A stretch of DNA of 64,000 nt. It comes from Halobacteriovorax marinus (GTDB lineage: Bacteria > Bdellovibrionota > Bacteriovoracia > Bacteriovoracales > Bacteriovoracaceae). The stretch covers positions 248,001 to 312,000 of the forward strand of contig MAAO01000006.1 of assembly GCA_002163155.1 (NCBI GenBank), written 5' to 3'. Under the pieces are notes generated by a model. It saw only the letters and a list, made by a program, of their open reading frames with translations. It had not been told where the DNA came from and ran no database searches. Below are positions 54,314-57,446 of the stretch, in pieces (the stretch's first letter is position 1; every line of letters starts with the position of its first letter). The translations under genes were made by a program, and so were the position numbers.

Positions 54314-54378
54314 ACTTCCCTAAAAAATTAAGAATAAATTCCATTGAGTGAATGCTCAGTGGGATTTACTCTACTAAA

Positions 54379-54984
54379 ATGAGTTTAAAAACCTTCTTAT
54401 TTCCATTGCCAAATATTTCATTGCAAATAGGTTCGCACAAACCTCTCAATATTTATGAGCCTCGTTACTTGCAAATGGTAGAAGACTCTATTAATCAGGA
54501 AATACCTATTTCACTTGTCTTCGCAAAGACTCAATTTGAAGTAGGAGACCAGGAGATTCCCCATGAAATTTTTCATTTCATTAAGCCCATCACAGGTCTT
54601 GGTCATCCTAGAATGATCTCTAGAAATATTGATGGCTCAGTGATTATTATGTTACCTGGAGAGTATAAGGGGCGTATTACAAAAGTTTTGAAAAGTGATA
54701 CGCCGTATATCATTTGTGAATATGAAAAAATTGAAGAAGTGCAAAAACTTAGAAATGAAAACATTCTTCTACTTAGAAACCTTCAATTAGAACTCGAGGA
54801 GTGGATTTCAAAATCGATCGACTTGACTGATCAACGGGATATATTACGGACCGAGTTAAGTGAGGCTGGACGCATAGTAGGGCTATATACAGAATTTATT
54901 GTCATGAATCCTGAGGCTCGTCAAAAGGTCCTCGAGATGGATAATATTAACGAAAAAATTCACTTTCTTGCCCTTAATGGTTAA
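54379..54984 (+). CDS. LON substrate-binding domain protein
   Basis: 201 residues from the ATG at 54379; another ATG 27 bases upstream is in frame, and neither has a clear ribosome site. The start FLFPLPNISLQIGSHKPLN and IYEPRYLQMVEDS is the typical opening of Lon N-terminal domains, without the AAA+ or protease parts. Free-standing versions are common and their roles vary. Stands alone between rng and the ribosomal operon. Confidence 0.83.
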   Translation: MSLKTFLFPLPNISLQIGSHKPLNIYEPRYLQMVEDSINQEIPISLVFAKTQFEVGDQEIPHEIFHFIKPITGLGHPRMISRNIDGSVIIMLPGEYKGRITKVLKSDTPYIICEYEKIEEVQKLRNENILLLRNLQLELEEWISKSIDLTDQRDILRTELSEAGRIVGLYTEFIVMNPEARQKVLEMDNINEKIHFLALNG

Positions 54985-55073: not shown

Positions 55074-55101
55074 TTTACATAAATCTCGCTCTAGTTACAA
55101 T
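55074..55101 (+). promoter_or_regulatory. Promoter of the S6-S18 operon
   Basis: TTTACA, 16 bases, TACAAT, 32 bases before the ATG at 55134. The predicted leader is only about 26 bases and includes the GGGAGG ribosome site. Confidence 0.55.
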
Positions 55102-55133
55102 AATTAGGGCCGTAAATTGTCCGGGAGGTTTTT

Positions 55134-55757
55134 ATGATTTATGAATTGGCCATCGTGGTTAAGACAGAAGCAACAGAAGAGCAGAGAGCTGCTATTCAAA
55201 CAATGTTGGCTGAAGTAGTAGCTACTGACGGAGGAGAAATCCTTCTATCTGATGACTGGGGAAACAAGCATTTCGCGCAAGCGACTTCAAAAGGTGTTAA
55301 AACAGGTCACTACCTATTTTTCATCTATTCTGGAAACGGAACTATCAATCTTGAAGTTGCCAGACGTATTGGTATTAATGAAACAATCATTAAAACTATG
55401 ACTATCAAACTTGCTGATTCGAAAGAAGAAGGTGAGGCAATTGTTAAGAAATTTAAGTCTCCATTCTCTAAGAAATTCAATGGAAGCATTGTTGACGACG
55501 GTGATGCAGACAACGATCTTGAAAAAGATAAGAAAAGATTTGCACGTAGAAAAACTTGTTGGTTTGCTTCAAATTGCATCACTCCAGATTGGAAAGATCC
55601 AAAAACTTACGCTTGGTTAGTTAACGAGTTTGGTAAGATCAATCCAGGTCGTGTTTCTGGTATTAGTCGTAAAGCCCACAGAAGAGCTGATACTGCGATT
55701 AAAAGAGCAAGAAACATGGGTGTTGTGAGTCATATTACAAATAACCTTGCAGAGTAA
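55134..55757 (+). CDS. rpsF-rpsR: Ribosomal protein S6 fused to ribosomal protein S18
   Basis: 207 residues in one uninterrupted frame. Residues 1-95 follow bS6 (MIYELAIVVK, DWGNKHFAQATSKGVKTGHY, INETIIKTMTIK). An acidic linker (about 110-133) leads into residues 134-207, a full bS18: RRKTCWFASNC, EFGKINPGRVSGISRKAHRR, AIKRARNMG. S6 and S18 are neighbours on the 30S platform and form a heterodimer, so the fusion makes structural sense. Where separate genes are normally adjacent, here no stop lies between them. GGGAGG precedes the ATG. The remaining question is whether the protein is cut after synthesis. Confidence 0.92.
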   Translation: MIYELAIVVKTEATEEQRAAIQTMLAEVVATDGGEILLSDDWGNKHFAQATSKGVKTGHYLFFIYSGNGTINLEVARRIGINETIIKTMTIKLADSKEEGEAIVKKFKSPFSKKFNGSIVDDGDADNDLEKDKKRFARRKTCWFASNCITPDWKDPKTYAWLVNEFGKINPGRVSGISRKAHRRADTAIKRARNMGVVSHITNNLAE

Positions 55758-55776: not shown

Positions 55777-56841
55777 ATGGATAACCAAAACGATAAAGAT
55801 AATTACGTAAAGTCTTCAAAGGGATCGGAAACGAACTCTAAAGAGAAGATCTTTGGGCAATTAACTAATGGGAAGCTTCTTTTTTTAGGAGTGATCTCAT
55901 TGCTATTATCTGTTTTAGGACCACTTTGTATTTTTGCTCCAGTCCCAATGGCCGTAGCATTCTTACTTTATGGAAAGTCTAGATCATGGATCATGTCCCT
56001 GAGTCTTAGTGCAATTGTACTTATAGTATCTCTTGTATTTAAGGATTTAGCAGGACTTTTAAGTGTGTCTATTTCGTACTTTATTGCCACTTTAGTTGCC
56101 TTTTTAACGGCAAGGGTAGTGTGGAATAAAACGAATCCTGTAACTGGTCTTATAAAGAATGGTTTATTTGTTTTTACGTTAATTGCATTGTTATTTGGAG
56201 CTGCGCAAATCGTTTCTGAAAAGCCGGTACTTGATCTTGTTACAGAACAAGTAAAGCACTTTGGAGACGTCTTAAAGCAAAGCCCAGACTATGATAAGTT
56301 GATTGCAACTGGCGGAGAGCAAGCTGAGAGCTGGAAATATATAGTAGAGCAGCCAAAAGAAATTGCTTCAAAATTTCTGAAAATGGCCTTTGCTGGAGTT
56401 TTCGTAGGAGTCTTCTTTGTTTTTTGGATGTCACAATTTATGCTAATGAGAAACACTCTTATTTGGCGTGAGTTACATGACTATCCTTACACAATGAAAG
56501 ATTTCGTACGTTTCAAAATTCCAGAACAATTTGTTTTTGTATTACTTGGCGCTATGGCGATGATTCCTCTTGGAACACATGTATTAGAAAATGAAATGTT
56601 ACAGGTTGTTGGATGGAATATTGTTTATTCTTTAGGAGTGTTTTATTTCTTCCAAGGTTTTGGCATTGTTTCAGAAGCACTAGATGCATTTGGTATTTTT
56701 GGATTTTTTAGAAGTGTCCTTATTATACTTACTATCTTCATGGGGTACCAATTCGTATCTCTTTTAGGTGTAGTAGATATTTGGGTTAATTTTAGAAAAT
56801 TCTTAAAAAAAAAGAATAATAATGAAGGAGATATAATATGA
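55777..56841 (+). CDS. DUF2232 membrane protein (YybS-like)
   Basis: 354 residues. About eight hydrophobic segments with a soluble loop near 150-200. The location between the S6/S18 gene and rplI, with a 4-base overlap to rplI, is typical of DUF2232 genes in other bacteria. No catalytic motif known. Role unknown; the place in a ribosome/replication operon suggests only co-expression. Confidence 0.8.
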   Translation: MDNQNDKDNYVKSSKGSETNSKEKIFGQLTNGKLLFLGVISLLLSVLGPLCIFAPVPMAVAFLLYGKSRSWIMSLSLSAIVLIVSLVFKDLAGLLSVSISYFIATLVAFLTARVVWNKTNPVTGLIKNGLFVFTLIALLFGAAQIVSEKPVLDLVTEQVKHFGDVLKQSPDYDKLIATGGEQAESWKYIVEQPKEIASKFLKMAFAGVFVGVFFVFWMSQFMLMRNTLIWRELHDYPYTMKDFVRFKIPEQFVFVLLGAMAMIPLGTHVLENEMLQVVGWNIVYSLGVFYFFQGFGIVSEALDAFGIFGFFRSVLIILTIFMGYQFVSLLGVVDIWVNFRKFLKKKNNNEGDII

Positions 56842-57446
56842 AAGTCATCTTAACAGAGAGAGTTAACACTCTTGGTAATGTTGGTGAGATCGTTAACGTT
56901 TCTCAAGGCTATGGTAGAAACTACCTGATTCCTAATAGATTCGCGGTACTTGCTGACGAAACAAATACAAAACAACTTAAGCATCAACAAAAAGTTCTTG
57001 CTTCTAAAGTTGCTGGTGAAAAAACTACTGCAACTGACCTAGCTAAGAAAGTTGAAGGATTAACATTAGAGTTCGTAAGAAGAGTTGCCGGAACTGGAAA
57101 ACTTTTTGGAACTGTTAATGCTCTTGAAATTTCTAAGGAACTTGCTAAGCAAGACGTTCAAGTTGAAAAGAGATTGATCGCTGTTGGTAACCCAATTAAA
57201 GCTCTTGGAACATTTAATGTTACAGCTAAGCTTTTTGACGGTGTTGAAGCAAGCTTCAAAGTAAACGTTACTCTTGATCCTGTTCAAGCAGAAGAAATCA
57301 AGAAGAAGAACGAAGATGCTGAGAAGAAGAAAGCTGCAGCTATTGCTGCTGGTGAAAATGTTTCTGAAGAAGCTGCTGAAGAAGTTAAAGAACTTACTGA
57401 AGAAGAAAAGCTTAAAGAAGAAGCAAACAAAATCTTAAGATCATAA
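56838..57446 (+). CDS. rplI: 50S ribosomal protein L9 with long acidic C-terminal extension
   Basis: 202 residues, about 50 more than usual. The first 45 residues are the canonical L9 N-domain (VILTERVNTLGNVGEIVNVSQGYGRNYLIP), followed by the connecting helix and C-domain to about 148. The rest is a Lys/Glu/Ala-rich tail (EEIKKKNEDAEKKKAA, then EEAAEEVKELTEEEKLKE) not present in most L9 proteins. It belongs to the rpsF-rpsR, DUF2232, rplI, dnaB string. Confidence 0.95.
   Translation: MKVILTERVNTLGNVGEIVNVSQGYGRNYLIPNRFAVLADETNTKQLKHQQKVLASKVAGEKTTATDLAKKVEGLTLEFVRRVAGTGKLFGTVNALEISKELAKQDVQVEKRLIAVGNPIKALGTFNVTAKLFDGVEASFKVNVTLDPVQAEEIKKKNEDAEKKKAAAIAAGENVSEEAAEEVKELTEEEKLKEEANKILRS

Follow-up and report, generated by a model that had tools for sequence, protein, structure and literature searches.

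In Halobacteriovorax marinus, the genes for two ribosomal proteins, rpsF (bS6) and rpsR (bS18), are fused, and comparison with the sequences of related genomes confirmed that this fusion is genuine and fixed. We consider it probable that the product stays uncleaved, works in the 30S platform as an S6:S18 pair that is joined from the start, and also serves as a repressor at its own leader, although the absence of cleavage and the repression are both inferred. That two core ribosomal proteins should be covalently joined, and that this state should be fixed across a large bacterial family, was unexpected, given how conserved the set of ribosomal proteins is. Features of the locus are collected in Table 1; their coordinates refer to the window, i.e., the whole stretch of 64,000 nucleotides that was analyzed (contig MAAO01000006.1, positions 248,001 to 312,000).

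Table 1. Features of the rpsF-rpsR fusion locus and its surroundings, with the basis for each
Feature	Position	Strand	Basis or remark
Possible promoter, TTTACA-16-TACAAT	55074..55101	+	2 found vs 2.4 expected
Leader hairpin	55085..55127	+	Covariance model match 55083-55136, E 0.016; covariation
Outer pairing of leader hairpin	CTC 55085-55087 with GAG 55125-55127	+	GAG is part of the Shine-Dalgarno sequence
Apical stem of leader hairpin	55088-55097 with 55101-55110	+	
Conserved CCG in 3' loop of leader hairpin	55121-55123	+	
Shine-Dalgarno sequence of fusion gene, GGGAGG	55123..55128	+	Good to strong
rpsF-rpsR fusion gene	55134..55757	+	207 aa, bS6-linker-bS18; ATG start, single frame
bS6 domain and C-terminal tail, residues 1-116	55134..55481	+	Pfam, structural alignment, tail of unfused relatives
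Acidic linker, residues 117-132	55482..55529	+	Net charge -6; no in-frame ATG/GTG/TTG
bS18 domain, residues 133-207	55530..55754	+	Pfam; PDB profile matches; alignment (C142 kept)
DUF2232 membrane protein gene	55777..56841	+	Downstream of fusion, usual order
rplI (bL9)	56838..57446	+	Downstream, usual order

Domains of the fusion protein and the linker between them

The sequence-only reading of this locus had proposed a single frame of 207 codons containing bS6 and bS18, with an acidic linker at approximately residues 110-133. The frame and its two domains are borne out by Pfam, where both score above the gathering cut-offs: Ribosomal_S6 (PF01250) at residues 3-92 (E 2.8e-17, 63.1 bits against a gathering score of 27) and Ribosomal_S18 (PF01084) at residues 149-196 (E 4.7e-14, 52.6 bits against a gathering score of 21). 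The acidic stretch that we found lies close to where it had been placed. In NCBIfam, the fusion protein passes the S18 model TIGR00165 (48.4 bits, cut-off 38.75) and falls short of the equivalog cut-off of the S6 model TIGR00166 (35.7 vs 42.9 bits); the latter is a curated naming threshold, and the Pfam and fold tests for bS6 were both met. Thus, automatic annotation would probably label the fusion protein as S18 only, in which case S6 is hidden and appears to be missing from the genome.

The AlphaFold model of the fusion protein (61 sequences) has a pLDDT of 87 and a pTM of 0.82, and its top Foldseek matches are ribosomal S6 chains. In the structural alignment to ribosome-bound S6 (VIA), residues 1-112 to 1-117 superimpose with a Z of about 16 and an rmsd of 1.4 over about 102 residues; the S6-like structure, including its tail, ends at approximately residue 112-117. 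Only S6 chains were among the structural matches listed, and the bS18 assignment rests on sequence, not on a fold comparison; PDB profile matches to S18 cover residues 133-203. No solved chain with both domains was found among the best 60 matches, and profile matches were to S6 or to S18 singly.

The origin of the linker can be read from unfused relatives, in which S6 has a tail like LVKNYKCPLQKNS and S18 has an acidic N-terminal extension whose last residues are DMDKDRRMFSRKKSCWF; the fused protein reads ...AIVKKFKSPFSKKFNGSIVDDGDADNDLEKDKKRFARRKTCWF at the junction. The VKNYKSPFS-like C-terminal tail is common to S6 of the unfused relatives and to the S6 part of the fused protein. These matches to both tail and extension place the join near residue 116 and indicate that the linker was built from pieces that both proteins already possessed. 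They show that the residues up to about 116 represent the C-terminal tail of S6 and residues from about 117 to 140 represent the acidic N-terminal extension of S18, and that the fusion arose when an almost complete S6 was joined to this extension, the two genes then being neighbors. The actual tether comprises approximately residues 117-133.

The linker could also be the place where the product is cut; the ribosome would then contain S6 and S18 as two ordinary proteins, and the fusion would secure only their equal synthesis. Eukaryotic ubiquitin-ribosomal protein fusions are cut in this way, the length of the linker varies among fused relatives, and AlphaFold confidence is low around residues 121-135, where the linker is predicted to be disordered. 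However, no recognizable conserved protease site is present in the linker alignment, and the conserved K-x-P-F/Y-S-K just upstream of the linker belongs to the S6 tail; we regard cleavage as a doubtful alternative to a product that stays in one piece.

There is still less room for a free S18 that would arise by internal initiation in the linker, alongside the fused chain. Of the 79 named fused genes, 55 have some in-frame ATG, GTG, or TTG in the region from residue 91 to the S18 cysteine, and one subclade shares an ATG immediately 5' of S18, but the methionine shared by this subclade is a residue of S18 itself, as it is present within unfused S18 proteins too. The remaining genes (24 of 79) have no such codon, and even a loose Shine-Dalgarno sequence precedes a candidate codon in only 11 of the 79. 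In the H. marinus gene, the region from residue 91 to C142 contains none of these three codons in frame; thus, separate initiation of S18 at the junction is impossible there. Judging from these codons, S18 is unlikely to be produced separately by internal initiation.

Distribution and origin of the fusion in Bacteriovoracaceae

The fusion alignment was used to survey 369 genomes of the phylum; 129 of these belong to Bacteriovoracaceae, and 119 of the 129 were matched. One intact frame spanning both domains was found in about 110 of the 129 Bacteriovoracaceae genomes searched. A search with the H. marinus protein as a query detected the uninterrupted frame throughout the genus (five genomes) and in most of the family. 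Exceptions among the 119 matched family genomes are few: the frame is cut by contig ends in three (G011, G070, and G140), S6 and S18 are separate ORFs in five (G005, G022, G028, G101, and G031), and in one (G029, locus L101) the linker contains an in-frame TAA (JAPONP010000061, about 1864-1866), with no in-frame start codon in its S18 part downstream of the TAA. The five genomes with separate genes and the one with the in-frame TAA indicate that the fusion is not indispensable. Among the 80 named loci, which are the best matches of the scan and hence not an unbiased count, 79 have an intact frame, with product lengths of 198-215 aa; the names of these loci identify the family as Bacteriovoracaceae (Bacteriovorax, Halobacteriovorax, and MAGs). 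In other families of the phylum, S6 and S18 are separate, and no match as strong as the joined one was seen among the matches listed, in the per-genome table, or at the loci that were read. A candidate second fusion in family f4 (G039) was rejected: it consists of two ORFs in one frame with a stop between them.

The host genome, which is 99.99% complete in 16 contigs, has one S6 and one S18, both within the fusion ORF, and no further rpsF or rpsR was found elsewhere in it. S18 is also single in each of 118 Bacteriovoracaceae genomes, i.e., in every family genome with an S18 match. The sequence-only reading had suggested searching related genomes for the same continuous frame, and this frame proved to be kept in most of the family. 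It had also named three findings that would refute the fusion, namely a free-standing rpsR, a sequencing error, and relatives with separate genes at the locus. The first is absent from the genome, and the second is excluded because about 110 independent assemblies, isolates included, carry an intact frame. Relatives with separate genes do exist, both in other families and in five genomes of this family, but they represent the unfused state, and the fusion described here stands. The junction stop in one MAG (G029) could be taken to suggest an artefact, but explanations of this kind (an overlooked stop, an error in the sequence, or a pseudogene accompanied by a true rpsR elsewhere) are already refuted by the genome survey, with its single S18 and its intact frames.

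Fused and unfused proteins also differ in the zinc ribbon of S18. In the alignment, unfused S18 proteins of Bacteriovoracaceae have all four ligands (CxxC...CxxH), whereas fused S18 proteins, including that of G029, have only the first cysteine, three of the four ligands being lost. In the H. marinus fusion gene, C142 is the sole ribbon ligand kept within residues 142-183, a region in which fused S18 does not meet the CxxC...CxxH criterion. Fusion and ribbon loss thus co-occur. G029 looks like a gene of the fused lineage that either acquired its stop later or was misassembled; readthrough and a true split are further possibilities for this TAA. The zinc ribbon is not required of every S18, as two outgroups (G326 and G050) are also without it.

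It remains unsettled whether there was one fusion event or two, because the trees disagree. On the one hand, in the rpoB+rpoC tree, which is a quick tree with a long outgroup branch, the fused genomes form two groups with the unfused ones placed between them, and monophyly of the fused genomes is rejected (AU p 0.018). On the other hand, in the S6+S18 tree the fused proteins form one clade, albeit with weak support (65/79), and the unfused ones are basal lineages. Reversal from the fused to the unfused state is inferred to be less likely, because the zinc ligands would have to return.

The leader RNA upstream of the fusion gene

Leaders of fused genes have a common layout: a CUC-GC...-loop-...GC hairpin, an internal loop with a conserved CC, then GGAGG, and then the start codon. 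A covariance model derived from 17 of these leaders matched 75 of the 80 leaders tested, including the one in Table 1. The matched element reaches the start codon or stops a few bases from it, and E rises to 0.3 in the weakest matches. Over 75 distinct rows, 96.0% of the cells were paired, and 113 both-side changes were counted, compared to 30.7 (sd 4.3) in shuffles. Covariation was 0.418 vs 0.159, with a collapse once the alignment was slid. Because the alignment had been fitted to the structure, the counts are biased in favor of the helix, but the size of the effect and the controls with a slid alignment speak for the helix being real.

In Rfam, RpsF_leader (RF02893) did not match the leader of the fusion gene even at an E of 5, and no leader examined from the family or the phylum was scored; as a positive control, the E. 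coli rpsF leader scored 110 bits. Because this model is silent, we refer to the leader as RpsF_leader-like and not as a member of that family. Its layout nonetheless meets the description of RpsF_leader, namely a hairpin, a 3' internal loop with CC, and a Shine-Dalgarno sequence in the outer pairing, located directly before rpsF. The unbroken 5' strand, the apical helix, the 3' loop with conserved CC (UCCG in E. coli), and the outer stem with the Shine-Dalgarno sequence are shared, whereas the outer stem has approximately 3 pairs (CUC:GAG), fewer than in E. coli, and the ligand would be one protein. Leaders from the phylum's other families resemble that of E. coli in form (CCUU...AAGG). An outgroup leader from family f4 (L139), in which the Shine-Dalgarno pairing is E. 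coli-like, is matched by the Bacteriovoracaceae model (E 0.001). The leader of the fusion gene is apparently a remodeled rpsF leader.

A link between the fusion and autoregulation by S6:S18 had been suggested before any search was made, and the conserved hairpin strengthens it. In E. coli, bS6 and bS18 heterodimerize before joining the 30S subunit, and the S6:S18 complex represses translation via the rpsF leader, which neither protein does alone (PMC4647458). Since the E. coli repressor is the complex and not a single protein, the fused protein could, by inference, act alone. According to the mechanism that we propose, the translated S6-S18 chain would stay uncut, for which there are no protein-level data, and its S6 and S18 parts would dock on each other and join the 30S platform as a unit. 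Docking within one chain would make the heterodimerization step intramolecular and would fix the S6:S18 ratio at 1:1. The fused protein would then bind its own leader hairpin upstream of the start and repress its own translation; this is inferred by analogy with the S6:S18 complex of E. coli. With a Shine-Dalgarno stem of only 3 pairs and no Rfam match, repression may differ from that in E. coli. We lean, if only slightly, toward the view that ribosomes of this family have a permanent S6-S18 polypeptide, a single chain responsible for both platform assembly and feedback on the remodeled rpsF leader. A pair that elsewhere needs a partner search during ribosome assembly appears pre-joined in nearly all Bacteriovoracaceae, which are predatory bacteria. 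The fusion offers a natural test of two questions: is 30S assembly limited by the cooperative S6:S18 step, and does the feedback exerted by the complex require free subunits?

The promoter candidate in Table 1 is weak, because it overlaps the hairpin and its frequency is not above chance. Leaders of three unfused family members (L134-L136, from G022, G028, and G101) are shaped differently and have longer hairpins, and G031 is the only unfused family member with the family-type CCAGGAG leader.

Known systems and gene neighborhood

The fusion locus shares its domains, gene order, and downstream rplI with bacteria that have the rpsF-(priB/ssb)-rpsR-(rplI) operon. It differs from separate bS6 and bS18 genes in encoding one chain, without a stop or a second start, and in the loss of three zinc ligands of S18. 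Ribosomal proteins are also made within longer chains, and later cut free, in ubiquitin-eL40 and ubiquitin-eS31. In those cases the partner is non-ribosomal, whereas in the S6-S18 fusion two touching ribosomal proteins are joined.

In E. coli, S6 is modified at its C-terminus by RimK and S18 is modified at its N-terminus by RimI; the fusion removes both of these sites. RimK-like matches in the fusion-bearing genome were all below the cut-off. The search for RimI as a correlate of the fusion produced noise from the GNAT family: in genomes with and without the fusion, most of the best matches failed to reach the cut-off.

No published account of an S6-S18 fusion was found in the PMC literature, a search that left out most subscription papers and preprints, and the available portion of a 2020 paper in Protoplasma does not mention one. 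In E. coli, rpsF is reported to be dispensable, unlike most genes for 30S proteins (cited in PMC2837039); a protein that is dispensable in E. coli is thus tied to S18 here.

RNase G and the fusion gene are separated by a gene for a free-standing protein with a LON substrate-binding domain (54352-54984). The downstream bL9 continues past its Pfam domain with an additional charged tail of about 55 residues at the C-terminus.
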